Below are positions 15,721 through 50,577 of a stretch of DNA of 64,000 nt, one piece after another. The position numbers and the translations under genes are program-made. Below the pieces are notes generated by a model that saw only the letters and a program-made list of their open reading frames with translations, was not told the origin of the DNA and searched no databases. This stretch comes from Kutzneria kofuensis (GTDB taxonomy: Bacteria > Actinomycetota > Actinomycetes > Mycobacteriales > Pseudonocardiaceae), in NCBI RefSeq assembly GCF_014203355.1, contig NZ_JACHIR010000001.1, positions 7,318,038 through 7,382,037 on the forward strand, given 5' to 3'. Position 1 is the first letter of the stretch, and each line of letters starts with the position of its first letter.

Positions 15721-15816
15721 CTCGACCTTCCCTGCCGCCTCGTCCGTCCCCACCCGCTGCTCGCCGGTCCGCGGCGCCCTCTTCCCGCACCGCCCCGTCA
15801 GGTCCCGCCCTTGCGC

Positions 15817-15863: not shown

Positions 15864-15880
15864 AGTGACAGGAGTCGATC

Positions 15881-16300
15881 ATGGCCGACCAGCGCCCGCC
15901 GCTGCCGCCGTTCACCGAGGAGACCGCCCGCGCCAAGGTGCAGGCGGCCGAGGACGCGTGGAACAGCCGCGACCCCGAGCGGGTGGCGCTCGCGTACACC
16001 GAGGACTCGGAGTGGCGCAATCGGGACACCTTCCTCAAGGGCCGGGACGAGATCCGCGAATTCCTCCGGCAGAAATGGGCGCGGGAGCTCGACTACAAGC
16101 TGCGCAAGGAACTCTGGGCGTTCACCGGCAACCGCATCGCCGTGCGCTTCGAGTACGAATCCCGTGACGCCGACGGCCAGTGGTGGCGCAGTTACGGCAA
16201 CGAGATGTGGGAGTTCGACGAGAACGGCCTGATGGCACGGCGTTATGCCAGCATTAACGACCTCAAGATCACCGCGGATGAGCGTCGGCTCGCTCTGTAG
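15881..16300 (+). CDS. DUF1348 family NTF2-like protein
   Basis: The 139-residue protein has the DUF1348 pattern: [21 protein letters not shown] at the N-terminus, then [25 protein letters not shown] and [12 protein letters not shown]. It has the cone-shaped NTF2/SnoaL fold, a pocket used by many small isomerases and cyclases. No enzymatic activity is firmly known for the family. The ATG follows AGGAG. Its promoter carries the twin TetR operator, so it is expected to be derepressed by a small molecule. Confidence 0.88.
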
Positions 16301-16311
16301 TGTTTCCAGGC

Positions 16312-17565
16312 ATGACCTCGGCGCGCGACCACGTGATGACGGGCCTGGACGACCTCCGGCCCGGCCTCGAAGACCTCTACCGGGACCTGCACGCGCACCC
16401 GGAGCTGGCCTTCGAGGAGCATCGCACCGCCGCCGAGGTCGCGAAGCGGGCGGAAGCGGCCGGCTACGAGGTCACCACGGGCGTCGGCCGCACCGGCGTG
16501 GTCGCCGTGCTGCGCAACGGACCCGGCCCGACCGTGCTGCTGCGGGCCGACATGGACGCGCTGCCGGTGGAGGAGCAGACCGACCTGCCGTACTCCTCGA
16601 CGGTGGACGGCGTGATGCACGCCTGTGGGCACGACATGCACACCGTGTGCCTGCTCGGGGCGCTGGACCTGTTGGCCCGCGGCCGCGACCGGTGGTCGGG
16701 GACGATCCTCGGTGTGTTCCAGCCGGCGGAGGAGCTGGCCACCGGCGCCGAGGCCATGGTCGACGACGGCCTCTACGACCGGTTCGGCCGGCCGGACATC
16801 ACGCTCGGCCAGCACCTCGCGCCGATCCCGGCCGGCTGGCTCGGCTGCCACGCCGGGCCGGCCTTCGCCGCCACCGACACCCTGGACGTCCGGCTGCACG
16901 GCAAGGGCGGTCACGGCTCCCGGCCGGAGACCACCGTCGACCCGGTGGTGCTGGCGGCGTCCACCGTGCTGCGCCTGCAGACCATCGTCTCCCGCGAGGT
17001 CGCGGCCAAGGACTCCGCGGTCGTCACCGTCGGCACCATTCACGGCGGCACCAAGGACAACATCATCCCCGACCACGTCGACCTGGGTGTGAACGTCCGC
17101 ACCTTCGACGACCAGGTGCGGACGAAGGTCCTGGCGGCGATCGAGCGGATCGTGCACGCCGAGGCCGTCGCCGCCGGAGCGCCCCAGGAGCCGGAGATCA
17201 CCCGGGTGAACGCCTTCCCGGTGCTGGTCAACGACGAGGAGGCGATGGCCCGGACGAAGGCGGCCTTCGACGAGGCGTTCCCGATGGTCATCGACCCCGG
17301 CCCGGTCACCGGCAGCGAGGACTTCGGCCACTTCGGCGCCGCCGCCGGCGTGCCCACGTGCTACTGGCTGTTCGGCGGCGAGGACCAGGAGCGCTTCGTC
17401 ACCGCCTACACCGGCGGCACCTTCGAGCGGGACATCCCGTCCAACCACTCGCCCAAGTTCGCGCCGCTGCTGCAGCCCACCCTGGACGGCGGCGTCACCG
17501 CGCTGGTGACCGCAGCCCTGGCGTGGCTGGGTTCCGCTCAGGGTGGCCCGTCACTGCATTCGTGA
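16312..17565 (+). CDS. M20 family metallopeptidase / amidohydrolase
   Basis: The M20D-type fold has metal-binding motifs LRADMDALPVEE and HACGHDMHT (about residues 74-105), the PAEE glutamate (GVFQPAEELATGA) and the C-terminal histidine in PSNHSPKF. Relatives hydrolyse N-acyl amino acids, hippurate or IAA conjugates using two divalent metals. ATG 16312 is preferred to GTG 16300, which overlaps the previous stop. Oddity: the last codons and the stop lie in the first unit of a 56-bp tandem repeat, so the C-terminal tail (ALAWLGSAQGG…) is repeat-derived. Confidence 0.88.
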   Translation: MTSARDHVMTGLDDLRPGLEDLYRDLHAHPELAFEEHRTAAEVAKRAEAAGYEVTTGVGRTGVVAVLRNGPGPTVLLRADMDALPVEEQTDLPYSSTVDGVMHACGHDMHTVCLLGALDLLARGRDRWSGTILGVFQPAEELATGAEAMVDDGLYDRFGRPDITLGQHLAPIPAGWLGCHAGPAFAATDTLDVRLHGKGGHGSRPETTVDPVVLAASTVLRLQTIVSREVAAKDSAVVTVGTIHGGTKDNIIPDHVDLGVNVRTFDDQVRTKVLAAIERIVHAEAVAAGAPQEPEITRVNAFPVLVNDEEAMARTKAAFDEAFPMVIDPGPVTGSEDFGHFGAAAGVPTCYWLFGGEDQERFVTAYTGGTFERDIPSNHSPKFAPLLQPTLDGGVTALVTAALAWLGSAQGGPSLHS

Positions 17566-17701
17566 CGGGTGCGCCGGCGTGGCTGGGTTCCGCCCGGGAC
17601 GGCCCGTCACTGCATCCGTCACCGATGCGCTGCGTGGCTGGATTCCGCTCAGGGCGGCCCGTCACTGCATTCGTGACCGGTGCGCCGGCGTGGACGGCTC
17701 C
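17521..17701. repeat. 56-bp tandem repeat, three units plus a partial
   Basis: Units start with GCGTGGCTGG at 17521, 17577 and 17632 (lengths 56, 55 and 56 bp). A fourth, partial unit begins at 17688. Each contains GGCCCGTCACTGCAT. The array spans the stop codon of the plus-strand amidohydrolase and supplies the stop codon of the minus-strand small protein that converges on it. It is likely to vary in copy number between strains. Confidence 0.85.
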
Positions 17702-17823
17702 GGCGTCGGCTCCTTCTTGCGAGGTTCCCCCAGCGCGACCTTGATCCGGCCGTCGGGCAGCATCACCCAGTGCAGGCCGCTGGCCGCGGCCAGCTGGTCG
17801 AAGATCGGAGTGCCTGGCGACAT
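17662..17823 (-). CDS. Small conserved-looking protein (53 aa), function unknown
   Basis: The reading frame has a strong ribosome-binding site (GGGAGGGAG) 9 bp before ATG 17823. The protein begins MSPGTPIFDQLAAASG and contains VMLPDGRIKVALGEPRKKE, followed by a Pro/Thr-rich tail. The composition and the good Shine-Dalgarno sequence argue that it is real. The stop codon and last residues fall in the 56-bp tandem repeat. A G-tract palindrome of CsoR type lies 66 bp upstream. I do not recognise a function. Confidence 0.55.
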   Translation of the reverse strand: MSPGTPIFDQLAAASGLHWVMLPDGRIKVALGEPRKKEPTPEPSTPAHRSRMQ

Positions 17824-17888
17824 CAGCGTGACTCCCTCCCCGTGCTGATGCCTGCCTACCAAACTCCGGGGACGGCCGAGGCGGAAAC

Positions 17889-17904
17889 TACCCCCACGGG
17901 GGTA
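17889..17904. promoter_or_regulatory. CsoR/FrmR-type G-tract palindrome
   Basis: TACCCCC-AC-GGGGGTA is a perfect palindrome between the end of the SRPBCC gene and the 53-aa gene, both on the minus strand. C/G-tract palindromes with TA ends are the hallmark of operators for CsoR/RcnR/FrmR/CstR repressors (copper, nickel, formaldehyde, persulfide). No such repressor is encoded in the window. It might instead be a hairpin after the SRPBCC gene. Confidence 0.4.
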
Positions 17905-17910
17905 ACCCGA

Positions 17911-18210
17911 TCAGGCTCTTTCCACGCGCCAGTACTGCCGGGTGGCCGGCGTGGTCAGCGGCGCGGACTCGACGAACTCCTTGAAGCGCAGCAGAATGCC
18001 GGCCGGCGTGGTGTCGGGGTCCGCTCGCAGCACCAGTCTCGTGGTGTGCGTGTCGAGGTAGTGGAACGTGACGCGGCCCCCCGGCCAGGCGATCAGCTCG
18101 TCCTGGCGCTGGGCGGTGACCGGCCGCGGTGAGGAGCTGTAACCGGCCCATTGCTCGTAGGCGGTGCGCAGGGGCACCGCGAGCTCGACCGTCTCCTCGA
18201 AGGTGTTCAT
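17911..18210 (-). CDS. Small SRPBCC/START-like protein
   Basis: The 99-residue protein starts MNTFEETVELAVPLRTAYEQW, the usual opening of polyketide-cyclase/dehydrase (SRPBCC) proteins. It carries the strand pairs expected for the family (VTFHYLDTHTTRLVLRAD, TRQYWRVERA) but is shorter than the usual 140-150 residues. It is probably a ligand-binding protein of unknown target. It is 21 bp downstream of the 160-aa hypothetical gene and likely co-transcribed. Confidence 0.7.
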   Translation of the reverse strand: MNTFEETVELAVPLRTAYEQWAGYSSSPRPVTAQRQDELIAWPGGRVTFHYLDTHTTRLVLRADPDTTPAGILLRFKEFVESAPLTTPATRQYWRVERA

Positions 18211-18231
18211 GTGGGGTGCTTCCTTTTCGTT

Positions 18232-18717
18232 CTAGCCGGCCGAGGATTCGACCAGCCAGTCCGGCGCCCGCGCGCCGCCCTCCCGACAGGCCGCGAGCAG
18301 GTCGGTGGTCCACAGCAGCAGGTGCATCAGGGCGACGGTGTCCTCCTCCGGATCGTGCCGGTCGAACACCAGGCCCAGCTGCATGTCCGCGGACTGCTCG
18401 TCGGAGTTCACCAGGGCCATCACCGCGCGGAAGCTCGCCCGCAGCGGCGGGTCGATGTCGTCGATCGGGATCTCGTTGCCCTCGGTGTCGCCGAGCTGCA
18501 TCTTGATCGGTGCACCATCCCCGACCTGCAAGCACAGGGACTTCAGCATGTCGGCCGAGGCGTCGGCGAGCACGTCGGCCGCCTCACGGGGACTGTGGTC
18601 GGCGCCCCGGTACAGCGCCGTCAACGCGTCCAGGGCGCCGTCGGGATCCGATTCCTGCATGCGGTTCACCGCGGTGCGCACCAGCAGGCGCACCATGCCG
18701 TCCTTGCGCTCGTCCAT
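18232..18717 (-). CDS. Conserved hypothetical protein (about 161 aa)
   Basis: An acidic soluble protein with no signal peptide or membrane segment. ATG 18717 follows a strong GGGAGGA ribosome-binding site and is preferred to the ATG at 18732. Recognisable segments are an alpha-helical N-terminus (LLVRTAVNRMQESDPDGALDALTALYRG) and a C-terminal helix (ALMHLLLWTTDLLAACREGG). I do not recognise a family of known function. It shares an operon with the SRPBCC-like gene. Confidence 0.7.
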   Translation of the reverse strand: MDERKDGMVRLLVRTAVNRMQESDPDGALDALTALYRGADHSPREAADVLADASADMLKSLCLQVGDGAPIKMQLGDTEGNEIPIDDIDPPLRASFRAVMALVNSDEQSADMQLGLVFDRHDPEEDTVALMHLLLWTTDLLAACREGGARAPDWLVESSAG

Positions 18718-26454: not shown

Positions 26455-27825
26455 TCACCCCTTGTACTGTGCGAACGTCCGGGTGAAATCCCAGGCGTTC
26501 TGCGACACACCGGAGCACGTGTCGTCGTTCGGGTAGGCGCCCGGGCACGGCCGGTCCCGGTTGGCCGACCAGAACGTGAACCGGCCCAGGTGGTGCTGGT
26601 TGGCGTAGCCCACCATGGTCTGGGCGTTGGCCACCGTCACCCGCTCGTTGTTGTCGGTGATGCCGTTCATCGACGACAGGCCGCTGTGCCGGTAGGCCAC
26701 GTCGTCGCTGTAGTGGTACGCGTCCCGCACCGCCCGCTCCAGGCCGTCGGTGGCCTGCGCGGTGAGCCGGGCCATGTCCTGGCCGGCGCCGCCGAAGTCG
26801 AACGGCATGATCGTCCACACGTCCACGGTCAGCCCGGAGTTGGCCGCCCGGGTGATCAGGTCGTTGCCCGGGCCGTTCTGGCCGCTGCCGATCGTGATGT
26901 ACACGGTGATGCCGGGGTTGTTGGCCTTGATGATCTTCAGCGCGTCGACCAGCCGCTGCTGGATGGTGCCGTTGCCGTAGATGTCGCCCTCGAAGTCGAG
27001 GTCGATCGCCTTCAGCCCGTAGGTGTTGATCACCTTCTGGTAGGCCCCGGCCAGGTCGTTGGCGTTGTTGCAGGAGGCCTCCAGCTTGTTGCCGTTGGCC
27101 CCGCCGAAGGACGGCACCACGTCACCGCCCGCGGACCGGATGGTGTTGATGGTGTTCTGGTCCACGCCGCCGGTCAGCGGCCGGCCGCCGTCCCACATCG
27201 GGGTGCAGTACCCGTTGTTGAGCACGAACGCCATCGTGAACCACTTGACGCCGGTCGCGTTCATGATCGTGCGCGGATCCGGCGGGTTGCCCCAGCCGTT
27301 GTAGTAGTACGGCGCGACGGCCATCGCCCCGTTCGGGGGCGGGGGCGGCGGCGGGGGAGTGGTGCCGCCGCCGGGGGCCGCCCAGGTCTGGTTGCCCGAA
27401 CCGGCGCAGTCCCAGATCTGCAGCGGGGTCCCGTTGGCGGAGCTGTTGTTGGTGGCGTCCAGGCACTTGCCCAGCGCGCGGATCGAGCCGTCGGAACCGA
27501 TCGTCCACTGCTGCGCGGCGGTGCCGTTGCAGTCCCAGATCTGGACCTTGGTGCCGTTGGCGGGGTTCGCGCCGGCCACGTCCATGCACTTGCCCAGCGC
27601 CTGCAGGCTGCCGTCGGAACCGACGGTCCACTGCTGGGCGGCGGTGCCGTTGCAGTCGTAGAGCTGGACGGCGGTGCCGTTGGCGCTGTTGGCCCCGGCG
27701 ACGTCGACGCACTTGCCGCCGAAACCGGTGATCGCACCGGTCGCCGCGTACGCGGTCGCCGGCAGCACCGCCATCGCCGCCAGGCCGAGGACGCCGGTCA
27801 GCGCCGCGACGGACTTCGAGATCAT
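26455..27825 (-). CDS. Secreted GH18 chitinase with N-terminal CBM13 (ricin-type) domain
   Basis: Layout: signal peptide (residues 1-28, cleaved near AYA-A), a CBM13 beta-trefoil of three QxW-type repeats (about 30-150, GKCVDVAGANSANGT…), a Pro-rich linker (about 157-166) and a GH18 barrel. The barrel carries AIDLDFEG, in which Glu279 is the catalytic acid and Asp275/Asp277 precede it. The first Asp of the usual DxxDxDxE motif is Lys here, as I recall for some actinobacterial GH18 enzymes. It hydrolyses chitin beta-1,4 bonds outside the cell. Its ATG overlaps the stop of the chitosanase gene (ATGA). Confidence 0.9.
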   Translation of the reverse strand: MISKSVAALTGVLGLAAMAVLPATAYAATGAITGFGGKCVDVAGANSANGTAVQLYDCNGTAAQQWTVGSDGSLQALGKCMDVAGANPANGTKVQIWDCNGTAAQQWTIGSDGSIRALGKCLDATNNSSANGTPLQIWDCAGSGNQTWAAPGGGTTPPPPPPPPNGAMAVAPYYYNGWGNPPDPRTIMNATGVKWFTMAFVLNNGYCTPMWDGGRPLTGGVDQNTINTIRSAGGDVVPSFGGANGNKLEASCNNANDLAGAYQKVINTYGLKAIDLDFEGDIYGNGTIQQRLVDALKIIKANNPGITVYITIGSGQNGPGNDLITRAANSGLTVDVWTIMPFDFGGAGQDMARLTAQATDGLERAVRDAYHYSDDVAYRHSGLSSMNGITDNNERVTVANAQTMVGYANQHHLGRFTFWSANRDRPCPGAYPNDDTCSGVSQNAWDFTRTFAQYKG

Positions 27826-28886
27826 GCGACCGTCCACTTCTGGTTGGCGGAACCGGCGCAGTCCCAGATCTGCAGCCGGGTTCCGTTGGCGGAGCTGTTG
27901 TTGGTGGCGTCCAGGCACTTGCCCAGCGCCCGAATCGAACCGTCGCCCGGACGGGACCAGTTCTGCGCCGTGCTGCCGTTGCAGTCCCACAGCTGGACCT
28001 TGGTTCCGTTGGCGGGGTTCGCGCCGGCGACGTCGAGACACTTGCCGAGGGCGCGGATGGTGCCGTCCGAGCCGACGGTCCACTGCTGGGCGGCGGTGCC
28101 GTTGCAGTCGTAGAGCTGGACGGCGGTGCCGTTGGCGCTGTTGGCCCCGGCCACGTCGACGCACTTGCCGCCGATGCCGGTGATCGTGCCCGCACCCGGG
28201 GGCGGCGGGTTGCCACCGCCGCCACCGACGAACTGGGTGGCGAGCTGCTGGCCCAGGGAGACCGCGCTGCTGTGGCTCTCGATCGGGTTCACCCGAGAGT
28301 GCGGGAACACGATGTAGGTGACGCCGCTGTCGGTGCCGCCGTTGCGCGGGTCGGGGTTGATGCCCAGCGACTGCGCCGTGGCGTAGGAGGATTCACCGAT
28401 GATGCCGGTCGGACCGGTGTCGCCGACGACCGCATAGGTCACCTGGTTGTTGTAGATCACGGCGACGACCGCGCCGCCGTCGATGCCGGCCGTCCGGTAG
28501 TCCCAGGTGCCCGACGGGCTGGGCAGCACGATGTACGGCAGCTTCGCGGCGTCCAGCGGCTGGTCGGTGGACGTGTGGAAGGCAGTGTCCGGGTAGAAGC
28601 AGCAGTCGGTCTGCTCGTTGCACTGGGTGGTCCGGACGCCGTCGCAGTCGACGTCCATGTCCGCCTTGAAGAACACGGCGCCATCGGCCTGGCAGACCGG
28701 GATCGTCGCGGCCTGGCCCTCGTCCGTGGCGTAGCGGCCGTTGGAGATCTGCTGGCAGTTGGTCACCTTGGCCAGCAGTTGGCTCGCCGAGGGGCCGCCG
28801 GGGTCCGACGCCATCGCCGGCGTCGCGCCGAACATCGGCAGCGCCAACAGGAAACCGGCGAGAACGACCAGGATTCGTCTTCTCAT
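27822..28886 (-). CDS. Secreted GH75 chitosanase with C-terminal CBM13
   Basis: The 354-residue protein has a signal peptide (1-27, …TPAMAS) and a GH75-type catalytic domain (about 30-220, with FFKADMDVDCDG and TDCCFYPDTAFHTS). A Gly/Pro linker and a CBM13 trefoil (about 232-354) follow. GH75 enzymes are endo-chitosanases that split beta-1,4-glucosamine polymers. The start is coupled to the upstream GH16 gene (TGATG) and the stop to the downstream chitinase gene. The CBM13 cassette is almost identical to those of both neighbours. Confidence 0.85.
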   Translation of the reverse strand: MRRRILVVLAGFLLALPMFGATPAMASDPGGPSASQLLAKVTNCQQISNGRYATDEGQAATIPVCQADGAVFFKADMDVDCDGVRTTQCNEQTDCCFYPDTAFHTSTDQPLDAAKLPYIVLPSPSGTWDYRTAGIDGGAVVAVIYNNQVTYAVVGDTGPTGIIGESSYATAQSLGINPDPRNGGTDSGVTYIVFPHSRVNPIESHSSAVSLGQQLATQFVGGGGGNPPPPGAGTITGIGGKCVDVAGANSANGTAVQLYDCNGTAAQQWTVGSDGTIRALGKCLDVAGANPANGTKVQLWDCNGSTAQNWSRPGDGSIRALGKCLDATNNSSANGTRLQIWDCAGSANQKWTVA

Positions 28887-30121
28887 CAGCTGTTCACCGT
28901 CCACTTCTGGTTGGCCGAACCGGCGCAGTCCCAGATCTGGAGCTGGTTGCCGTTGGCGGAGCTGTTGTTCGTCGCGTCGAGACACTTGCCCAGCGCCCGG
29001 ATGGTTCCGTCGCCCGGACGGGACCACTGCTGTGCGCCGGTGCCGTTGCAGTCGTAGAGCTGGACCTTGGTGCCGTTGGCGGGGTTCGCGCCGGCGATGT
29101 CGAGGCACTTGCCCAGCGCCCGGATGGTTCCGTCGCCCGGACGGGACCACTGCTGTGCGCCGGTGCCGTTGCAGTCGTACAGCTGCACCGGGGTTCCGTT
29201 GGCGCTGTTGGCGCCGGCCACGTCGACGCACTTGCCGCCGAGGCCGGTGATCGTGCCGCCACCGCCCGGCGGAGGCCCGCTGTCACCCGTGGTCACGTGT
29301 ACGTAGTCCACGACCAGGCGGCCCGGGAACGGCGTGCTGCCGTCGGGGTTGCCCGGCCAGTAGCCGCCGACCGCGAGGTTCATGATGATGAAGAACGGGT
29401 GGTCGAACACCCAACGGTTGCCGTTGATGTCGGCCGGAGTCCTTGTCTCGTAGGCGTTTCCGTCCACGGACCAGGTGATCCGGTTGGGCGACCAGTCGAT
29501 CGCGAAGGTGTGGAAGCCGTCGGCGAAGGCCTGGCCGCCGGGCAGTGAGTAGCCGGCGCCGACACCCCCGGAGCCCGAGTAGCCGGGGCCGTGGATGGTG
29601 CCGTGCACGGTGTTCGGCTCGAAACCGACGTTCTCCATGATGTCGATCTCGCCGCTGGCCGGCCACCCGACGTTCGGGTCGCCGATGTTGTCGCCCAGCA
29701 TCCAGAACGCCGGCCACATGCCCTGGCCGCGCGGGATCTGCATGCGGGCCTCGAAGTGACCGTAGGCCTGGGTGAACCGCTGCGCGGTGTTCAGCCGCGC
29801 GGAGGTGTACTCGCACGGGCCGTACCAGCAGTTGTGGCCGCCCTCGCGCTTGGCCGTGATGACCAGGTGGCCCTGGCCGTCCAGCGCGCCGTTGGCGGCG
29901 CCGGAGGTGTACCACTGGAGCTCGTGGTTGTTGACGTTGTCGCCGGTCTCGTACTGCCACTTGCCGCCGTCGGCGGGGCTGCCGGCGGGGCCGTCGAAGT
30001 CGTCGCTGAAGGTGGTGGTGGCCGTCGGCGCGGCGGGGGCGGCCGACGCCGACAGTCCCAAGGGGACGATCGTGGCCGCCGCGAGCACCGCGGCCAACAG
30101 CGTGTTGCGTTTTCTGCGCAT
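28886..30121 (-). CDS. Secreted GH16 endo-beta-1,3-glucanase with C-terminal CBM13
   Basis: The 411-residue protein has a signal peptide (about 1-27), then a GH16 jelly-roll domain (about 35-275) with catalytic motif GEIDIMENVG (E-x-D-x-x-E) and WYGPCEYTSARL, MWPAFWMLG and DWSPNRITW. A linker and a CBM13 trefoil (about 288-411) follow. GH16 members of this type hydrolyse beta-1,3-glucans such as laminarin or fungal wall glucan. It heads the three-gene operon GH16-GH75-GH18, a set able to attack fungal cell walls. It is a close paralogue of the next GH16 gene, which lacks CBM13. Confidence 0.92.
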   Translation of the reverse strand: MRRKRNTLLAAVLAAATIVPLGLSASAAPAAPTATTTFSDDFDGPAGSPADGGKWQYETGDNVNNHELQWYTSGAANGALDGQGHLVITAKREGGHNCWYGPCEYTSARLNTAQRFTQAYGHFEARMQIPRGQGMWPAFWMLGDNIGDPNVGWPASGEIDIMENVGFEPNTVHGTIHGPGYSGSGGVGAGYSLPGGQAFADGFHTFAIDWSPNRITWSVDGNAYETRTPADINGNRWVFDHPFFIIMNLAVGGYWPGNPDGSTPFPGRLVVDYVHVTTGDSGPPPGGGGTITGLGGKCVDVAGANSANGTPVQLYDCNGTGAQQWSRPGDGTIRALGKCLDIAGANPANGTKVQLYDCNGTGAQQWSRPGDGTIRALGKCLDATNNSSANGNQLQIWDCAGSANQKWTVNS

Positions 30122-41765: not shown

Positions 41766-42038
41766 ATGGATCGCATGGACGTGATTGCACGGGCGGAGAG
41801 CTGCTGGGGCATTCCGCATGGCGAGTGCCACGAGGACCCCGTCACGATCACCGAGCAGGCGGTGGCGGCGCTGAAGGAACTGGCCGCCCGGGAACCGGAC
41901 AACACCGACCACTCGCAGAAGCTGTCCTGGGCGTTGATCAACCTGGCCCAGCTGCTCTCGGCCCGCCGCGAGCACGCACGGGCGGACGAGGCGGCGCTGG
42001 AGAGCGTCGCGATCATGCGCCGGGCGCTGGCCCGATGA
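41766..42038 (+). CDS. TPR-like small protein at the head of the biosynthetic cluster
   Basis: The 90-residue protein has an N-terminal segment with two Cys (ESCWGIPHGEC, residues 11-21) and helical repeats resembling one TPR unit (SWALINLAQLLSARREHARADEAALESVAIMRRAL). It overlaps the methyltransferase-like gene by 4 bp (ATGA), so it belongs to the cluster. ATG 41775 is an alternative start. A scaffold or a shortened TPR regulator remnant is possible. It does not look like a classical RiPP precursor, but the CxxxxxxxxC head near the start is worth noting given the YcaO gene in the cluster. Confidence 0.6.
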   Translation: MDRMDVIARAESCWGIPHGECHEDPVTITEQAVAALKELAAREPDNTDHSQKLSWALINLAQLLSARREHARADEAALESVAIMRRALAR

Positions 42039-42898
42039 CGGCGGCGCTGCTGGGCCTGCACCGCGCGGCCGCCACGCTGTCGGCGTATTCGGCGGCGGTG
42101 CAGCTGGGTCTGATCGACCAGATCGACCGCACGCCGGCGACGGTCGAGGACCTCGCGATGACCTGTGGCGCAAGCGTTCGCGGCGTCCGAGTGGTCCTCG
42201 CGACGCTGGCGGACAGCGGCCTGGTGCAGCTGCGCGCCGACGGCCGCTACGAGCCGGCGACGACCGGTCTGGCCGGCGTGCACTCGCTGCTGCCGTGGCG
42301 CGACCAGGTCACCGACTCGGTCCGTACCGGTCTGCCGGCCCGCGAGGCGGAGCGGGACGTGATCACGACCCTGCTGCACGGGATGCGAGCGGACGTCGTC
42401 ACCGAACTGCCGGCCGCCAAGCGCGTCCTGGACGCCAGCGTGGACGGGGCGCCGTGCGGGGCGGCGCTGGCCGCCCGCGACCCGCAGTGCCGCGTGAGTG
42501 TGTTGGACGTGCCGGCGAACCGCCGCGCCAACCGGTGCCGGCAGTTCGACTTCCTGACCGGCGGCCTGTTCGACGCCCAGCCGACCGCCGGCACGTACGA
42601 CCTGGTCATGCTGCCCGGCGTCTGCCACCTGCTGGACGCCGACTGCGCCGCCGAGCTGATCCGCCGCTACGTGCCGGCGCTGCGCCCGGGCGGCACGCTG
42701 GCCGTGATCGACACGCTCGCGGGCTCGCAGGGTGCGGCCACGCACGAGCTGTCCCTGCTGCTCCGCACTCGTAGCGGCACCATCCACGATCCGGCGGACT
42801 ACCGCCGCTGGCTGGCCGAAGCCGGACTGAGTGCATTGAGGAGGGTCGACGTGGGCCGGCAGCCCACACTGACGGTGCTGACCGGGCTCAAACCCTGA
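42035..42898 (+). CDS. O-methyltransferase-fold protein with degenerate SAM loop
   Basis: The 287-residue protein has the N-terminal winged-helix dimerisation part of small-molecule O-methyltransferases (SAYSAAVQLGLIDQID … DLAMTCGASVRGVRVVLATL) and a Rossmann-like C-terminal half (RYVPALRPGGTLAVIDTL). The glycine-rich SAM motif, normally VxDxGGGxG, reads VLDASVDGAPCG near residues 130-141. SAM binding may therefore be altered or lost, as in fold members that do other chemistry. It is coupled to the TPR-like gene. Substrate unknown. Confidence 0.7.
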   Translation: MTAALLGLHRAAATLSAYSAAVQLGLIDQIDRTPATVEDLAMTCGASVRGVRVVLATLADSGLVQLRADGRYEPATTGLAGVHSLLPWRDQVTDSVRTGLPAREAERDVITTLLHGMRADVVTELPAAKRVLDASVDGAPCGAALAARDPQCRVSVLDVPANRRANRCRQFDFLTGGLFDAQPTAGTYDLVMLPGVCHLLDADCAAELIRRYVPALRPGGTLAVIDTLAGSQGAATHELSLLLRTRSGTIHDPADYRRWLAEAGLSALRRVDVGRQPTLTVLTGLKP

Positions 42899-42972
42899 GC
42901 AGCCGCCCGAAGGATCACACGAAGTGCGCTCGCCGCCGGTGCCGATGCCGTGTTCCGCAACAGAATTGAGCC

Positions 42973-43803
42973 ATGGCAAAGCAGGGCGTGCTGGTCACGG
43001 GCGGCTCAACCGGCATCGGCCGGGCGCTGGTCCGCCGGTTCGCGCGCGGCGGGCACCGGGTGTGGTTCACCTATCACTCCAACCGCCGGCCCGCCGAGAC
43101 GCTGGCGGCCGAGCTGGCCGGCGAGGGAGCCGAGGTCGAGGCGTTCGAGTTCGACCAGGGCGATTGGGACAGCCACGTGGAGCTGCACGACCGGCTGCCC
43201 GGCCCGGTCGACATCCTGGTCAACAACGCCGCGGTCGGCTCGCAGACCGTGCGACGTTATGTCGACGGCACCCCCGAACAGTGCGACGCCGCGTTCCTCC
43301 AGGTGAACAGCGTCGGTCCATTGTGGCTGGTCCGCTCGGTGCTGCCGGGCATGCTCGACCGCGGCCACGGCAAGATCGTCAACGTGGCCAGCGTCGGCGG
43401 CGGGGTCGCCACCTTCCCCGACTTCCACATCGCCGACGGCATGAGCAAGGCGGCGCTGGTCTACCTCACCAAGCACCTGGCCGCCGAGTTGGCGCACCGA
43501 CCGGTGGACGTGTTCGCGGTCTGCCCCGGCGCGGTGCGGACCCCGATGTTGCAGGCCAGCCTGCTGGACGGCCTGGCCGGCGCCGAACTGGACGACCTGA
43601 TCCGCCGGCTGCCGGGCGAAAGGCTGATCCAACCCGAGGAGATCGCCGACCTGGTCTGGTGGCTGTGCCGCGACGAGGCCTCGGTGCTGCGCGGCGCGGT
43701 TCTCGATGCCTCTCTCGGGCTTGGTGTGCATCCAGGTTTGCTCACCGGACCCGGTGCCGCCATGGGGCATGCCAGCAGCACCGCCGCGAGGAGCGTTGCG
43801 TGA
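42973..43803 (+). CDS. SDR-family oxidoreductase with altered active site
   Basis: The 276-residue Rossmann protein has the cofactor motif TGGSTGIG (about residues 9-16), the NNAA motif (VDILVNNAAVGS) and the SKAAL segment. The catalytic tetrad is unusual: the YxxxK tyrosine position is Asp (ADGMSK), while Lys and an upstream Ser are present. A C-terminal tail of about 25 residues exceeds most SDRs. Classical reductase activity is therefore doubtful. The stop overlaps the aminotransferase start (TGATG). Confidence 0.82.
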   Translation: MAKQGVLVTGGSTGIGRALVRRFARGGHRVWFTYHSNRRPAETLAAELAGEGAEVEAFEFDQGDWDSHVELHDRLPGPVDILVNNAAVGSQTVRRYVDGTPEQCDAAFLQVNSVGPLWLVRSVLPGMLDRGHGKIVNVASVGGGVATFPDFHIADGMSKAALVYLTKHLAAELAHRPVDVFAVCPGAVRTPMLQASLLDGLAGAELDDLIRRLPGERLIQPEEIADLVWWLCRDEASVLRGAVLDASLGLGVHPGLLTGPGAAMGHASSTAARSVA

Positions 43804-45011
43804 TGGTGTCCCGCCGAGCCGCGGCGCTGACCGCGCATGCCCCGGCCATCGCCGCCGCGCACCTGCGCGTCGAGCGTGATCCCTATGACCCGCAACGCAA
43901 TCCCGGCGGTTACCTGAACCTGGGCACCGCGGAGAACCGGCTGGTATGGGACCTGCTCGCCGACAAGGTGACCGCGGCGCGGAACATCGAGCCTCGGGAC
44001 GTGCGGTACGGCCCGTTGCACGGCTCACCGCAGCTTCGGGCCGCGACTTCGCGCCTGCTGTCGAAGACCTGGCACGCGAAGGTGGATCCCGACCATCTGG
44101 TCGTGGTGAGCGGCGCAAGCGCCGCGTTGGACATCGTGGCCAGCGTGCTGTGCGACCCGGGCGAGGCGATCGTGGTGGCCGCGCCGTACTACAGCGCGCT
44201 GGACGTGCTGCTGACCGGCCGGTCCGGGGCGCGGCTGATCCCGGCGCCGCTGTCCGGCGCGACGGGCTTCAGCCTCGACGCCAGAGCGGTCGAGCGGGCG
44301 ATCGACCAGGCCCGCAAGGACGGCGTCACGGTGCGCGCGGTCGCGATCACCTCACCCTGCAACCCGACCGGGAACGTGCATTCCTTGGCGGCACTGAGGG
44401 ACGTGCTCGCGGTTGCCGAGCGGCACGACCTCGACGTGATCGCCGACGAGATCTACGCCAACTCGGTGTTCGGTGACGAGCCGTTCGTCAGCGTGCTCGA
44501 TCCCCGGCTGCGCGGCGGCAATCGGGTGCACGTGATCTGGGGATTCGCCAAGGACTTCGGCCTGTCCGGGCTGAAGGTCGGCGTGTTGCACACCGAGCAC
44601 CCCGAGGTGCTCGAGGCGGCGACGGCGCTCGCCTACTTCGCCCCGGTCTCCACCGACACCCAGGCGCTGCTGACGAACCTGCTCGCCGATCACGAGTGGG
44701 TGGACGGGTTCCTCAAGGAGAACCGGGCACGGCTGGCCGACTCGTACCGCAACGCCGCCGCCTGCCTGGCCGAGCAGGGGATTCCGCATGTGCGGCCGGG
44801 CGCCGGTTTCACGGTCTGGACCGACCTGAGCCGGTGGCTGGGAGAGGGAACGGAAAACCAGCTCTGGCACCGCGTTCTGGACGAGGCCAGGGTGAACCTC
44901 ATCCCCGGCACGGCGTTCGGGAGTCCCGCGCCCGGCTGGTTCCGGCTCTGCCACACCACGGATCCCGGCCACGTCCACGAGGCGCTGCGTCGCGTCGGCG
45001 GGCTGTCATGA
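43803..45011 (+). CDS. PLP-dependent aminotransferase, class I/II (ACC-synthase-like)
   Basis: The 402-residue fold-type I enzyme has the PLP lysine at Lys250 (IWGFAKDFGLSGLKVG), the asparagine motif SPCNPTGNVHS, the Asp-containing DEIYANSVF and the C-terminal FRLCHTT arginine. The N-terminal motif NLGTAENRLVWDLL resembles the 1-aminocyclopropane-1-carboxylate synthase / MalY-like group, which can do elimination as well as transamination. It is coupled to both neighbours by overlapping start and stop codons. In the cluster it probably acts on an amino acid precursor; the substrate is unknown. Confidence 0.88.
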   Translation: MVSRRAAALTAHAPAIAAAHLRVERDPYDPQRNPGGYLNLGTAENRLVWDLLADKVTAARNIEPRDVRYGPLHGSPQLRAATSRLLSKTWHAKVDPDHLVVVSGASAALDIVASVLCDPGEAIVVAAPYYSALDVLLTGRSGARLIPAPLSGATGFSLDARAVERAIDQARKDGVTVRAVAITSPCNPTGNVHSLAALRDVLAVAERHDLDVIADEIYANSVFGDEPFVSVLDPRLRGGNRVHVIWGFAKDFGLSGLKVGVLHTEHPEVLEAATALAYFAPVSTDTQALLTNLLADHEWVDGFLKENRARLADSYRNAAACLAEQGIPHVRPGAGFTVWTDLSRWLGEGTENQLWHRVLDEARVNLIPGTAFGSPAPGWFRLCHTTDPGHVHEALRRVGGLS

Positions 45012-45934
45012 CCATGGACCGCTGGTACGAGCAGGCCGGGATACGCAACGGCGTCCGGCGGATCTTCCACGAGGAGTCCGAGGCGGGCAAGGTGTTCTTC
45101 CCGCACCGGCTGGTGCCGTACCTGTCCCACGAGGCCGTCCGCGACCTGCCCGCCGAGCGGCACCGGGAGCTGGCGGTGCGCCACCTCTACCAGTTCCTGC
45201 TGTCCACCGCGCACCTGGAGACCAGGGTGGTCAACCGGGGCGCGGAGCTCATCGCCAACGGCCGCAGCGGGATCGAACTGCCGATGTCCAGCCGGCTGGA
45301 CGCGTTCAAGGTGTACTGCGACGAGGGCTACCACTCGCTGTACAGCCTCGACCTCGCCGACCAGATCGGCGCGGTGACGGGTGTCCCGGTGCCCCGCTGG
45401 AACTACGGCGGGTTCGTCGACCAACTCGCCGACGCGGTCGACCGAACCCTGCCCGACCATCCCGAACTGGCCGTCCTGCTGCAGGTGGTCGTGTTCGAGA
45501 CGCTGATCACCGCCGTGCTGAACGAGATCCCCCACGACGACACGGTGGTCACCACGGTGAGGGAAACGGTGCGCGACCACGCGAAGGACGAGGGCCGGCA
45601 CCACCACTACTTCACCGGGTTCTTCCACGAACTGTGGCACCAGCTGGACGCCCCGACCCGGGTCGACGTCGCGTTCGCGATGCCCGCCCTGATCCGCAGC
45701 TGCCTGCTGTGGGACGTGGAACCGGTCCGCTCCTCCCTGGTGCTGGCCGGACTCGACGACACCACGGCGACCGCCGTGGTCCGGGACTGCTACGGCGGCG
45801 ATCCCGGGAACGAGCGGATCAGGGCGATCTGCCGGGCCAGCCTGCGGATGTGTGAGTCGGCGGGCGTGCTCGCGGTGCCCGGTGCGGCGGAGCAGTTCGC
45901 CGCGCACGGTTTGATCGACGGGAGTGGTCGATAA
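45008..45934 (+). CDS. AurF-family diiron N-oxygenase
   Basis: The 308-residue helical protein carries all ligands of the AurF (p-aminobenzoate N-oxygenase) diiron site: Glu71 (HLET), Glu106 and His109 (DEGYH), Glu164 (VFET), His191, Glu195 and His198 (DHAKDEGRH). AurF-type enzymes oxidise an amine to hydroxylamine, nitroso or nitro, and some relatives catalyse other oxidations. The gene overlaps the aminotransferase by 4 bp and the dioxygenase-like gene by 1 bp (TAATG). This points to a product with an oxidised nitrogen, which is inference. Confidence 0.88.
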   Translation: MTMDRWYEQAGIRNGVRRIFHEESEAGKVFFPHRLVPYLSHEAVRDLPAERHRELAVRHLYQFLLSTAHLETRVVNRGAELIANGRSGIELPMSSRLDAFKVYCDEGYHSLYSLDLADQIGAVTGVPVPRWNYGGFVDQLADAVDRTLPDHPELAVLLQVVVFETLITAVLNEIPHDDTVVTTVRETVRDHAKDEGRHHHYFTGFFHELWHQLDAPTRVDVAFAMPALIRSCLLWDVEPVRSSLVLAGLDDTTATAVVRDCYGGDPGNERIRAICRASLRMCESAGVLAVPGAAEQFAAHGLIDGSGR

Positions 45935-46677
45935 TGCCGGCTTACGGAGCCTACCTGCAACTCCCCGCGCTGTTGGACCGCCAGCGCCCGCACGCCGACG
46001 CGCACGACGAGCTGCTGTTCATCACGGTGCACCAGGTCTTCGAGCTGTGGTTCAAGCAACTGCTGTTCGAGCTGGGCGACGCGCGTGACCGGATGCTCGC
46101 GGGCGAGAGCTACCTGCCCCGCAAGCGGTTGGAGCGGGCGGTGGTGATCCAGCGCGCGCTGCTGGGCCAGTTCGACGTGCTCGACACCATGGAGCCGCAG
46201 GACTTCAACGAGTTCCGCACCGCGCTGGGCACCGGCAACGGCGGCCAGTCCGCCCAGTTCTGGGAGATCGCACTGCTGTCCGGCTCGCGGGACGCCAGTT
46301 ATCTCGACCGGCCCTGGTACACCAAGCAGGAACGCGCGCGGTTGCGTCGGCGGTACGAGGAACCCTCGCTCTGGGAGGGATTCCTGGCCCTGCTGGCCGA
46401 CGCCGGCTTCGACGTCGCCACCAGGTCCTGCCGCGCCGACGCCTGCCGGCAGCTCGCCGCGCGCACCGACCGGTACCGGCAGCTGTGGGACCTCGCGGAG
46501 GCCCTGATCGCGCACGACCAGGCGTGGGCGTCGTGGCAGAGCCGGCACCTGCTGACCGTGCAGCGGCAGATCGGTCGCAAGCGCGGCACCGGCGGCAGCG
46601 CCGGTGCGGCGCATCTGAAGTCCCACCTGGACAATCGGTTCTACCCGGAGCTGTGGGAACTGCGCGCCACGCTGTAG
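45934..46677 (+). CDS. Tryptophan 2,3-dioxygenase-superfamily haem protein
   Basis: The 247-residue protein shows the TDO pattern: AYLQLPALLDRQ, HDELLFITVHQVFELWFK (distal His33), FRTALGTGNGG, the proximal haem histidine His205 in SRHLLTVQRQIG and GTGGS (218-222). True TDOs convert L-Trp to N-formylkynurenine. Here the segment usually reading GFQS-QYR, whose Tyr/Arg hold the substrate carboxylate, is GGQSAQFW, so the substrate may differ. Related cluster-borne haem enzymes hydroxylate or oxygenate modified Trp or Tyr. It is the last gene of the coupled run. Confidence 0.85.
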   Translation: MPAYGAYLQLPALLDRQRPHADAHDELLFITVHQVFELWFKQLLFELGDARDRMLAGESYLPRKRLERAVVIQRALLGQFDVLDTMEPQDFNEFRTALGTGNGGQSAQFWEIALLSGSRDASYLDRPWYTKQERARLRRRYEEPSLWEGFLALLADAGFDVATRSCRADACRQLAARTDRYRQLWDLAEALIAHDQAWASWQSRHLLTVQRQIGRKRGTGGSAGAAHLKSHLDNRFYPELWELRATL

Positions 46678-46790
46678 GCCCGTCGCCTGGTGCAGCTGGT
46701 GGCGCTGCTCGGGCCGCCCGCTGGGCGGGACCGGCGGCTCGCAGCGGCCTGACGGCGCTGGTTTAGTCCGATTGGTGCATACTCGGACGA

Positions 46791-49412
46791 GTGGAGTCGA
46801 GGCTGGTTGGCCGTGATCGCGAACTGGGGGTCATCGACCGGGCGATCGGGGCGGTCCGTGGCGGCGAGCGCCGCATCCTGCTGGTGTCCGGTCAGGCCGG
46901 CATCGGCAAGTCGCGGCTGGCGGTCAGCTCGCTGCGCAGGGCCAAGGAGCACGACTTCGCGGTGCTGATGGGCTCGTCGAGCCCGCTGCAGGCCGGCCTG
47001 GCCTACGCGCCGGTGGTGGAGGCGCTGCGCCGCTACCTCGGCACGCTGCCCGAGCCGGAGTCGGCCGAACTGCTGGACGGCCTGCACGACATCGCCGGCC
47101 TGATCGCGGATCCGCGCCTGTCGCCGGCCCCGCCGACCGGCGATCCCGAGCTCGAACGCACCAGGATGTTCGAGGCCGTGCTGCGCCTGGTCGAGCGGAT
47201 CACGGCGCGACGACCGGCCTTGTTCGTCGTGGACGACCTGCACTGGGCCGACCGCGGCACGATCGAGCTGCTGCACCACCTCGGCCGGGGGAGCAGGCGA
47301 CGGCGGCTGCTGCTGTGGTGCGGCTATCGCAGCGCTGAGCCGGGCGGGCCACTGACGGCGTTGGCGATGACCGTGCGACGCGACGAGTCCGGCGTCGAGC
47401 TGGCGCTGGAACCGTTGTCGGACAACGCAGTGGGCGAACTCGTCGGCGATCTGCTCGGTGCACCGCCGCGCGCCGAGCTGCTCAGCAAGGTCACCGCACG
47501 TGCCCAGGGCGTCCCGCTGTTCGTCACGGCCCTGGTCGGCGGCGGCGAGATCCCCGACGGCCTGCCGGTGATCGTCCGCGATGTCGTGCTGGATCGCCTG
47601 CAGCGCTTGGACGATCGAGCGCGGCGGCTGCTGGAGCTGATCGCCGTCGCCGGCGCCGGCGGCTCGCCGCGGTTGCTGCGCACGGTGTGGGCCGAGGACG
47701 GGTTCGACGTGGTGCTGCGGCAACTGTTCCAGCAGGGCTTGGTCGAGGAGTTGGTGGACGGCCCGGCGCTGACGTATCGCGTGTCGCATCCGTTGTACGC
47801 GGAGGTCGCGTACGCGGAACTCACGGTGGGGCAACGGCGTTCGCTGCATGCGGCGATCGCCGCCGCGCTGGACCGCACCGACGTGCTCGAGGCCGCCCCG
47901 CACTACCGGGACGCCGGTGATCTTGTCGACCCGGCGCGGGCGTGTGAAGTCCTTGGCGCGGCGGGACAACGTGCGCTGGACGTCCACGACGCGCAGGAGG
48001 CGGTCAACTACCTCAGCGTGGCCCTGCACCACGCCCAGTCGATCGAACACGCCGACGTGATCCCGGAACTGATGGACGGCCTGGCCCGCGCGCTGCAGGC
48101 CAACGGCCGGCTCGACGACGCCGCGTCGCTCTGGAACCACGCGGATGCCTTGGCGCGGAGCCGGGGTGATTCGCCGCGGCAGCGCATTCTCGGCTACTAC
48201 CGGTCGATTCTGGAGGCCGAGCGCGGCAACGTGAGCACGCCGATGCTGCCGGTGCCGTTCGAGTCCGAGGACCCGCCGATCGGGCTGGTGGTGCACTGGC
48301 TCATCGCCGTTCGGGCCAACGACCTGACCCGGCTGTGGCTGGTGCTGGACGCGATGATCGGCCTGACCGAGCACCAGGACACGGCCGAGGCACGGACCGT
48401 CGCGCACTTCGGCGCGAGTGTCGCGGCGCGGATCGGCGGTGACTACGCGGGCGCGTACACGCAGAACCAGATCGCCATCGAGGCCAGCCGAGCGATCGGC
48501 GCCGAGTCGCGTGAACACTATGCCTACGCGGTGAAACTGCAGCATCCGGGACTGTCGATCCTGCGTGGCGACGTCGCCGCCGCCCTGCGGGCCACCGGCA
48601 ACCCCGGCGCGTCGCAGGTGCAGTTCCACCTGCCCGGGGCCGTGCACTACGTCGAGTACGTGAAGGTGTGGGCCACCTACATCTCCGGCGACCTGGCCGC
48701 CGCGCTCGCCGTCGCCGACGACAGCCTCGCCCTCGCCGAACAGGTCGGCCAGGACCGCCTGACCGGCCGCGCCCTCGCCGCCCGAGCCTTCCTGTTGCTG
48801 GAGAACGGAAACATCGCCCGCGCCGAGGCGGACCTGAAGGCAGCGCGGGAATGCTACGACGCCACTCACGACGACCTCGTCATGGTCACCGATCTCGCCG
48901 AGACCGCCTACGCGCTGCGGACCGGTGCCGCCGTCGACGCCACCGCTTACCGGCCGCCGCGCCCGCTCGGGGACCTGCTCGTCGACTGGCTGCGGGTGGC
49001 GTACTCCGGCTACCTGGCCGTCGCTCGCAAGGATCAGCCTGCGGCCCAACAGGTTCTGCAGCACCTCCGGGTCGCCGGCAAGACCTCGCCGTTCCTCGAC
49101 GCGCTCGCCCTCCGCCAGGAGGGACTGATGCTCGACGACCCCGAGCTGCTCCAGCAGGCCGCGGCGAGGCTCGACGCGATGGGCGCCCGTCTCTCCGTAC
49201 CCAAGGCGCTCACCGGCGCGCAGCCGTTGAGCAAGCGGGAACGGGAGGTCGTGCAGCTGGTCGGCAAGGGGCTGACCAACGCCCAGATCGCCGAGCGGCT
49301 CTTCCTCAGCGAGCGGACCATCGAGACGCACCTGCACAACAGCTACAAGAAGCTGCGGCTGACCACCCGCCCGGCGCTCACCCGGTGGGCGCTTGAGCAC
49401 GCCGACGACTGA
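46791..49412 (+). CDS. LAL-type LuxR family transcriptional regulator
   Basis: The 873-residue protein has an N-terminal AAA/STAND ATPase with Walker A SGQAGIGKSRLAV (about residues 35-47) and Walker B FVVDDLHWAD. A long TPR-like middle is followed by a C-terminal LuxR helix-turn-helix (LSKREREVVQLVGKGLTNAQIAERLFLSERTIETHL in part). Large ATP-binding LuxR regulators are usual pathway-specific activators in actinomycete biosynthetic clusters. The GTG start is preceded by TCCGA…TCGGA arms (from about 46767). It probably activates the upstream enzyme genes and overlaps the convergent YcaO gene by 35 bp. The gap 46678-46790 holds only a short GC hairpin (46714-46728). Confidence 0.9.
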   Translation: MESRLVGRDRELGVIDRAIGAVRGGERRILLVSGQAGIGKSRLAVSSLRRAKEHDFAVLMGSSSPLQAGLAYAPVVEALRRYLGTLPEPESAELLDGLHDIAGLIADPRLSPAPPTGDPELERTRMFEAVLRLVERITARRPALFVVDDLHWADRGTIELLHHLGRGSRRRRLLLWCGYRSAEPGGPLTALAMTVRRDESGVELALEPLSDNAVGELVGDLLGAPPRAELLSKVTARAQGVPLFVTALVGGGEIPDGLPVIVRDVVLDRLQRLDDRARRLLELIAVAGAGGSPRLLRTVWAEDGFDVVLRQLFQQGLVEELVDGPALTYRVSHPLYAEVAYAELTVGQRRSLHAAIAAALDRTDVLEAAPHYRDAGDLVDPARACEVLGAAGQRALDVHDAQEAVNYLSVALHHAQSIEHADVIPELMDGLARALQANGRLDDAASLWNHADALARSRGDSPRQRILGYYRSILEAERGNVSTPMLPVPFESEDPPIGLVVHWLIAVRANDLTRLWLVLDAMIGLTEHQDTAEARTVAHFGASVAARIGGDYAGAYTQNQIAIEASRAIGAESREHYAYAVKLQHPGLSILRGDVAAALRATGNPGASQVQFHLPGAVHYVEYVKVWATYISGDLAAALAVADDSLALAEQVGQDRLTGRALAARAFLLLENGNIARAEADLKAARECYDATHDDLVMVTDLAETAYALRTGAAVDATAYRPPRPLGDLLVDWLRVAYSGYLAVARKDQPAAQQVLQHLRVAGKTSPFLDALALRQEGLMLDDPELLQQAAARLDAMGARLSVPKALTGAQPLSKREREVVQLVGKGLTNAQIAERLFLSERTIETHLHNSYKKLRLTTRPALTRWALEHADD

Positions 49413-50577
49413 CTCGCAGCCGCCGGTAGTCCGTCGACCGGTCCAGTCCCGGCACGAACACGTTGACCACGGCGAGGTTCCGGGTCGAGTACTGCTCCCG
49501 CGCGTACGGCGTGAACCCCTTGCTGTGCAACAGGTCGACCAGGTGGTCGAGGTGTTGGCGCGGGGTGGCCGGCGCGCAGGTGGCCACGAAGCCGACCTCG
49601 GCCGCGTCCGGCAGCCGGCCGGAGAAGTCCGGCAGCTGCCGGCCGGTCGCCGTGCTCTGGAACTGGATCAGCTCGGTCAGCGCCCGGCTGGCCGCGACCC
49701 GGCTGGACAGCGCCGCCGCGCTGCCGGCCGCCACCGGCCGGCAGCCCGGCTCGGGCGCCTGGAACGCGTAGAACGCGGGCACGTCGAGGTCGGAGGTCAT
49801 ATCGATCAGGTGCACCGAGCGCCCGGACCGGTCCGCCGCCGTGATCAGCAGGTCGGCCAGGTCGTCCGGCAGCGACGCCGGATCGACCACCCGCAGCGCC
49901 CGCGCGTGGTCGCTGATCAGCTGCTCGGCGACCAACTGCGCCAGGGCGTCCCGCTCGACCGTCTCGTTGACGGCATGCACCAGGGCCTCCGCCGCATAGG
50001 AGCCAGCCGCCCAACCAGATGCCTCGACGCGGGCGCCGGTCGTCGAATAGTCGTAGAAGTCCTCGATGGTGAGCCGCGCCGGCTCACCCTGCGCGCCGCC
50101 GTACTCGGGGATCGTCAGGAACACCGGCACGTCCACGTCGTCGCTGCCGTCAAGCGCCTGGTAGCGCATGCAGCCGAGCTCGCGGGCCGGGCCTTCGGCC
50201 AGCCGCGCGACCAGCGGGTCCGCAGCCAGCGGGCCGGTCGCCACCTCGTGCGCCTCGCGCAGCCGGACCTGCCGGTTGCGCAGGCCGTCCAGGCCGCTCA
50301 GGTAGTTCTCCAACGCCTCGAACAGCGCCCCGACCCGGGCGGTCTCACGGTCGCCGCGGCCCAGGCCATCGGCTGCCGGCATCTGGACACCGGTGCAGTG
50401 CAGCGAGCACTGCCAGCTGCCCGGATCCGCGTCCAGCAGCGGCGTGAAGTGCGCGCTGAGCCCGAGTTCTCCGGCCGCCGCGAGGCCGCGCGCGAGCGCG
50501 TTGTCGAGGGGCAGGCCCCGTTCGGCCGGTACCGGCATCACGTGCAAGGTCAACTCCGTCCTGCTGGACGCGCCCAC
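49378..50577 (-). CDS. Stand-alone YcaO-domain protein
   Basis: The 399-residue protein has YcaO-type ATP/Mg-binding segments: RETARVGALFEALENYLSG, AEALVHAVNETVERDALAQ and SRALTELIQFQS, with the conserved Glu/Arg pairs. There is no fused E1-like or TOMM partner domain. YcaO enzymes activate an amide with ATP to form azolines, thioamides or amidines, usually on a peptide. The C-terminus is short and Arg-rich rather than the PxPxP of azoline-forming members. The start is GTG 50577, with ATG 50538 possible. No peptide substrate gene is evident nearby. It converges with the LAL gene. Confidence 0.82.
   Translation of the reverse strand: MGASSRTELTLHVMPVPAERGLPLDNALARGLAAAGELGLSAHFTPLLDADPGSWQCSLHCTGVQMPAADGLGRGDRETARVGALFEALENYLSGLDGLRNRQVRLREAHEVATGPLAADPLVARLAEGPARELGCMRYQALDGSDDVDVPVFLTIPEYGGAQGEPARLTIEDFYDYSTTGARVEASGWAAGSYAAEALVHAVNETVERDALAQLVAEQLISDHARALRVVDPASLPDDLADLLITAADRSGRSVHLIDMTSDLDVPAFYAFQAPEPGCRPVAAGSAAALSSRVAASRALTELIQFQSTATGRQLPDFSGRLPDAAEVGFVATCAPATPRQHLDHLVDLLHSKGFTPYAREQYSTRNLAVVNVFVPGLDRSTDYRRLRVSRRRAQAPTG

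Follow-up and report, generated by a model that had tools for sequence, protein, structure and literature searches.

A rare SDR–PLP–AurF–TDO cassette, probably directed at tryptophan, within an unrelated gene block conserved in Kutzneria

The window, a stretch of 64,000 nucleotides of the Kutzneria kofuensis genome, contains eight genes between positions 41766 and 50577, all but the last on the forward strand. The first two encode a TPR-like small protein (41766–42038) and a protein with the O-methyltransferase fold (42035–42898). They are followed by the genes of an SDR-fold protein (42973–43803), a fold-type I PLP enzyme of class I, ACC-synthase type (43803–45011, with GTG at 43800 as an alternative start), an AurF-type diiron protein predicted to be an arylamine N-oxygenase (45008–45934, PF11583), and a predicted tryptophan 2,3-dioxygenase, TDO (45934–46677, PF03301). 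The gene of a LAL regulator (46791–49412) comes next, and a convergent YcaO gene (49378–50577, reverse strand, PF02624) overlaps it tail-to-tail by 35 bp. The first six genes overlap their neighbours by 4 bp or 1 bp, apart from a single 74-bp gap at 42899–42972, before the SDR gene. All eight proteins exceed the Pfam gathering cut-offs except the TPR-like one, with 19.5 of the required 27.5 bits. Gene positions, packing, the downstream LAL gene, and the convergent YcaO gene thus agree with an earlier sequence-only reading of this DNA, and so do its domain calls, of which the TPR call alone lies below cut-off. The same reading had assigned all eight genes to one biosynthetic cluster, which did not survive comparison with related genomes.

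YcaO orthologues were searched for in 297 genomes of the window's family, and 20 kb around each match was compared. They are present at 79–85% identity in four congeneric genomes (G142, G057, G109, and G126), all of which share the gene order of the window: GH1, DUF3089, TPR, methyltransferase, LAL, YcaO, AraC, isochorismatase, with a gap of about 7 kb separating YcaO from AraC in G126. In each of the four the methyltransferase gene directly precedes LAL, and the cassette of SDR, PLP, AurF, and TDO genes is missing at that site; this position of LAL was established from DNA, a single-piece protein alignment covering half of LAL in G057. DNA homology to the four genomes ends at 42894–42896 and restarts at 46763–46764. 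The additional 3,868 bp (42896–46763, forward strand) fall at the methyltransferase stop codon, between the CCC and the TAG of the gene end, bring a new TGA stop, and consist of a 74-bp leader, the SDR, PLP, AurF, and TDO genes, and an 86-bp tail. Because the DNA homology to the four congeners breaks there, the 74-bp gap represents the left seam of the insertion. With the insert in place, LAL stands next to the TDO end of the cassette (46791 vs 46677). On parsimony, the extra DNA is read as an insertion; loss of the cassette in four lineages is the less economical, formally admissible alternative.

Two of the four congeners carry the cassette elsewhere. In G142 (C1) YcaO is located at 9.32 Mb and the cassette at 0.63 Mb, and in G057 at 4.11 Mb and 3.10 Mb, respectively; the long distances in G142 are less sure because its assembly is a scaffold of many contigs (534 according to PMC10232511). 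Genomes G109, G126, and G019 gave no AurF match at E 1e-30, and G087 contains an AurF match of 41% only, with the other cassette genes missing. The DNA common to the window and the cassettes of two congeners comprises the leader and the four genes only (42907–46675 in the comparison with L038 and 42914–46667 in that with L025), and the flanks differ. The left flank of the G057 cassette is present, cassette-free, in G142, up to about 50 bp before the cassette, with the right flank not adjoining there; as to the G142 cassette, the gene on its left has other copies, which blurs the empty-site comparison. The insert in the window is devoid of any mobility gene, and its ends show no convincing terminal inverted repeats or target duplication, the best direct match being 8 bp. 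A foreign base composition of the cassette was considered and rejected, the GC3 of its four genes being 0.90–0.94, like that of the flanks. The GH1-DUF3089-TPR-methyltransferase-LAL-YcaO block seems to be the older neighbourhood, and YcaO seems not to be part of the pathway. Genes that adjacency in a single genome presents as one cluster may belong to two unrelated modules; here the empty site of the congeners separates these almost to the base pair.

The distribution of the cassette was followed in two collections. Among the 297 genomes of the family, AurF at 60–85% identity was found in six further genomes, all with the order SDR-PLP-AurF-TDO, one TDO being cut by a contig end. An SDR profile search of contigs from 84,980 species genomes yielded 18 loci, and the SDR identity was at least 56% in 15. 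With the window included and duplicates (L026/L038, L030/L045, L029/L046) removed, 19 cassette-type loci were obtained, in which SDR is present in 19 (by construction), PLP in 17, TDO in 16, AurF in 15, and a formamidase-like hydrolase in 9. All 15 AurF loci, that is the window and 14 other actinomycete loci, carry SDR-PLP-AurF-TDO in this order, the TDO of Actinokineospora being the one interrupted by a contig end. The hosts of the full cassette belong to Kutzneria, Amycolatopsis, Sphaerisporangium, Allonocardiopsis, Actinophytocola, Actinokineospora, Streptomyces, and Kitasatospora, together with two further genomes of the window's family. The four cassette proteins diverge together: their pairwise distances across 14 loci correlate with r of 0.62–0.90, and for each of the six pairs none of 999 permutations reached as high a value. 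The Actinomadura livida locus lacks AurF and PLP, and its TDO is divergent and lies on the opposite strand. In a locus from Myxococcaceae (L051) the same SDR is paired with a PLP decarboxylase, a pair that would fit an SDR acting on an amino-acid-derived ketone or amine. The AurF search also gave eight weaker matches at 31–38% (L017–L021, L023, L024, and one in the L032 stretch). AurF relatives at 36–44% identity (L031–L037) were dropped, having no SDR, PLP, or TDO of the cassette kind alongside, as were L053–L055 from the SDR search, which contain other SDRs at 26–31%. Plasmids contributed eight records with AurF relatives, each below 60% identity. In a sample of the phylum searched at E 1e-60, one of 396 genomes, the source genome itself, gave a match. 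The cassette is rare and self-contained.

The other genes of the window do not follow it. Neither YcaO nor TPR was found beside any of the 18 other cassette-type loci, in stretches of up to about 10 kb per side; the methyltransferase gave a single weak match, in one Amycolatopsis (25%, E 7e-5), and LAL gave weak partial matches in 4 of the 18 (G057 and three others). YcaO, LAL, methyltransferase, and TPR were consequently rejected as cluster members, their block being colinear without the cassette in all four congeners, and the eight genes of the window are two modules, not one unit. Conservation and synteny, which the sequence-only reading had proposed as a check, were found for the SDR-PLP-AurF-TDO core alone, in 14 other loci. 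By the criterion that this reading had itself named, YcaO and the enzyme run nowhere else being neighbours, its inclusion of YcaO fails, the YcaO orthologues lying in congeners in which the cassette is far off (G142, G057) or AurF gave no match at E 1e-30 (G109, G126). The amidine or thioamide group that it had envisaged is unsupported, because YcaO is not linked to the cassette across genomes. The core by itself, stripped of YcaO, LAL, methyltransferase, and TPR, is still best explained as making a small tryptophan-derived molecule that bears an oxidised nitrogen.

The TDO scores 159.9 bits against the cut-off of 34.9 for PF03301 and stays below the equivalog cut-off of NCBIfam TIGR03036 (204.6 vs 390.7 bits), as does the housekeeping TDO of the host (358.7 bits). 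Its nearest relative is an enzyme that we take to be from Xanthomonas. In an alignment of 16 rows, of which full cassettes contributed 14, the carboxylate-binding Arg95 and the haem His205 are invariant, and the loop GTGG is present in 13 rows, with GSGG or GTAG in the remaining 3. The distal His33 is replaced by Gln in the Allonocardiopsis TDO and by Thr in the host housekeeping TDO, and the TDOs of G088, G223, and AkiI are strongly diverged. MarE of maremycin, likewise a TDO-fold enzyme that serves secondary metabolism, differs in its substrate loop, having SLGGR where TDO has GTGGS (PMC11904535); judged from its residues, the cassette loop is of the TDO type, not of the MarE type. The actinomycin and mycemycin clusters are also reported to employ a TDO-fold enzyme in secondary metabolism, as the cassette would.

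The AurF-type protein exceeds the PF11583 cut-off (76.0 vs 29.6 bits) and falls below that of NCBIfam NF045603, the 4-aminobenzoate N-oxygenase (19.5 vs 620 bits). Residues E71, E106, H109, E164, H191, E195, and H198 are invariant in 15 of 15 sequences; four of these seven diiron ligand positions align with AurF and the other three were assigned by spacing, relative to the AurF numbering. A search of the PDB with the single sequence gave no match, and that with the profile returned AurF and CmlI entries only. The structural model (pLDDT 87.9) is also nearest to CmlI and AurF, at 16–19% identity to solved structures. The cassette protein shares the fold and the diiron ligand positions with these arylamine N-oxygenases, known from the aureothin and chloramphenicol pathways, but the companion enzymes of the cassette suggest an amine of the kynurenine type and not of the p-aminobenzoate type. 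The substrates of AurF-type enzymes are free arylamines. To our knowledge, the maremycin, actinomycin, and mycemycin clusters contain no AurF.

The PLP enzyme, previously termed an aminotransferase, is better described as an ACC-synthase type. Its profile scores 305 bits to tomato ACC synthase compared with 136 bits to the best aspartate aminotransferase, and its model (pLDDT 88.9) has a TM score of 0.90 to apple ACC synthase, with ACC synthases filling the first 14 places. The plant ACC synthases (1b8g, 1iax) are its closest relatives by both profile and model, at 29–32% identity. The best NCBIfam match is GntC, a PLP cyclodehydratase, yet at 177.5 bits it stays below the GntC cut-off of 415. 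Lys250, which binds PLP, is invariant in 17 of 17 sequences. The Tyr of FQDYHG and the Arg residues of NRDLRWR, ACC-synthase-specific positions that we take to be active-site residues, are not kept in the profile, and because of this SAM is an unlikely substrate. In the SDR-fold protein, the TGxxxGIG and NNA motifs are invariant in the seven aligned sequences, and the catalytic Tyr of YxxxK is replaced by Asp, the stretch reading ADGMSK, in 19 of 19 relatives; as a control, this Tyr is kept in five of five other SDRs from the same loci.

A formamidase-like alpha/beta hydrolase with the motif HGG[YF]W lies beside 8 of the 15 full cassettes, and a hydrolase of another type lies beside a ninth; the Actinophytocola formamidase is located at L045:9182–9985. 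The best NCBIfam model for the HGG[YF]W type is a hormone-sensitive lipase family, below cut-off. No formamidase-type match was found in the stretch examined in the window, Kutzneria 744, G057, StrI45, or G223, and in StrMP the sole such match is located about 6 kb away. The host genome has a TDO-kynureninase-formamidase operon (L064) around its housekeeping TDO; the hydrolase of this operon carries the same HGG[YF]W motif and is distant from the cassette-type formamidase (25%, E 3.5e-4), for which the best match in the host's own genome is weak (E 1.4e-10). Kynureninase is absent from all 19 cassette-type loci. The cassette therefore has in common with the kynurenine pathway the TDO and, in over half of the cassettes, the formamidase-type hydrolase, whereas AurF, SDR-fold, and ACC-synthase-type proteins adjoin the TDO in place of kynureninase.

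We infer the following reactions, their order, and their product. TDO would open L-tryptophan to N-formylkynurenine, and a formamidase, here probably supplied by the host kynurenine operon, would free the aniline of kynurenine. TDO and formamidase together would provide a free arylamine, which suits enzymes of the AurF type, and AurF may then N-oxygenate this aniline, which would become a hydroxylamine, nitroso, or nitro group. Subsequent reworking of the amino-acid side chain would fall to the remaining two proteins, the ACC-synthase-type PLP enzyme and the SDR-fold protein, the latter lacking its catalytic Tyr. One guess is reduction of the gamma-ketone, followed by gamma-elimination, the ring closing at the aniline nitrogen or at the oxygen that it carries; gamma-elimination is known for GntC and ACC synthase. 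Another guess is transamination, which could give an N-hydroxyquinolone. Plausible end products would be an N-oxidised quinoline or quinolone, a benzisoxazoline, or a nitroaryl amino acid. There are good grounds for the tryptophan origin of the core product and moderate grounds for the N-oxidation of kynurenine by the core. On balance, it is probable that the window contains a relocatable, self-contained four-gene cassette for a tryptophan-derived metabolite made via TDO, formamidase, AurF, SDR, and PLP enzymes, inserted into an unrelated genus-conserved block. More tentatively, this may be a compact mobile pathway in which the ACC-synthase-type PLP enzyme and the Asp-for-Tyr SDR convert N-oxygenated kynurenine, by a so far undescribed transformation, into an N–O heterocycle or an aryl-cyclopropane amino acid. 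If true, it would be a dedicated route through AurF chemistry that starts from tryptophan, and the first such, as far as we know and as far as the literature was searched, the open-licence literature having yielded nothing that joins AurF with kynurenine or with ACC synthase. A four-enzyme pathway is small enough to be rebuilt in vitro, two of its enzymes have active sites deviating from their families, and it would offer direct access to new N-oxidised tryptophan chemistry.

Possibly, although we doubt it, the four enzymes do not make the final product, the cassette supplying an N-oxidised kynurenine derivative as a building block for loading or decoration by other clusters. The varied contexts speak for this: the G088 cassette adjoins ketosynthase- and ACP-like genes (named by eye), and that of Amycolatopsis L039 adjoins methyltransferase, EthD, TDO-like, and FAD hydroxylase genes. 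Against it, the neighbours in Allonocardiopsis, Streptomyces Isolate_45, and Kutzneria 744 look unrelated by eye, which argues that the cassette may stand alone. It is improbable that the TDO-fold enzyme is a MarE-like monooxygenase, or acts on a tryptophan derivative coming from the SDR and PLP enzymes, with AurF oxidising a different amine. The score at about half of the NCBIfam equivalog cut-off would allow it, and relatives in the HDAO superfamily perform monooxygenation (PMC11904535). Against it stand the predominant GTGG loop and the kept Arg and haem His, and the hydrolase of formamidase-like kind that adjoins 9 of 15 cassettes points to N-formylkynurenine. Ordinary tryptophan degradation, of which TDO and formamidase are the start, is very unlikely in a host that already has its own TDO-kynureninase-formamidase operon and with kynureninase missing from every cassette-type locus. 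We know of no place for AurF in catabolism. A single eight-gene cluster, with YcaO adding an azoline, amidine, or thioamide and LAL controlling all genes, is hardly credible: seven genes are adjacent on the same strand, and LAL, with its weak matches in 4 of 18 other loci, could have been recruited after the insertion, but methyltransferase, LAL, and YcaO are colinear without the cassette in four of four congeners, two of which carry it elsewhere, and YcaO and TPR accompany none of the 18.

Methylation or control by LAL is possible, because methyltransferases (in L039, of the same Pfam families, and in G057) and weak LAL-like matches lie near other cassettes. The cassette is probably transcribed from a promoter that it carries itself. 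The leader contains a conserved element, CRCACGRAGTR (42916–42926, forward strand), a candidate operator or upstream promoter element, which is the sole match to this pattern on both strands of the 64-kb window. The pattern was drawn after the leaders had been viewed; it occurs 57–60 bp upstream of the SDR start in 7 of the 19 loci, with two further matches inside another gene in two Amycolatopsis loci. A -10-like hexamer, CAGAAT (42961–42966, forward strand), recognised by eye, is located 6 nt before the ATG, which suggests a leaderless mRNA. In six of the seven element-bearing loci CAGAAT, GAGAAT, or CACAAT is found, also by eye, 6–7 nt before the start, and GAAGAT in the seventh.

Three Amycolatopsis loci carrying the SDR-PLP-AurF-TDO cassette, L039, L041, and L042, share a common set of adjoining genes at about 13700–18600 in their local coordinates, encoding a methyltransferase, a TDO-like protein of 410 aa, and a SnoaL-ankyrin protein; among these three loci, the protein families of the cassette neighbours were scanned in L039 alone. 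Of the cassette, Saccharothrix sp. ST-888 (L048, 9834–11929) and Kitasatospora sp. GP82 (L049, 8809–11088) retain the SDR-PLP pair alone, and neither AurF nor TDO was found in the examined stretches of these loci. The Actinomadura livida locus (L043, 9018–11649) combines an Asp-type SDR, in which Asp replaces the catalytic Tyr of YxxxK, with a formamidase and a TDO that is divergent in sequence and also divergently transcribed; its examined stretch contains neither AurF nor a PLP enzyme. Yet another Asp-type SDR gene, present in a Myxococcaceae MAG (L051, 9968–12255), overlaps a PLP decarboxylase gene (PF00282).

The K. kofuensis genome itself carries a housekeeping TDO-kynureninase-formamidase operon (contig positions 335000–337630; L064, 5001–7631), adjoined, as judged by eye, by an AsnC-type regulator; in its TDO the distal His position is occupied by Thr. 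Another tryptophan-type cluster of this genome (contig positions 7866635–7874248; L065, 5636–13249) encodes TDO-like proteins of 417 aa and 245 aa, a PLP protein of SufS/kynureninase-like type, an FAD hydroxylase, and an arylformamidase-like protein scoring below the cut-off, as well as aminotransferase-like and ATP-grasp-like genes called by eye.

Elsewhere in the window, three adjacent genes (26455–30121) have in common lectin-like tails that appear very similar by eye. The LAL and YcaO genes overlap tail-to-tail by 35 bp (49378–49412), an arrangement also present in four congeners.
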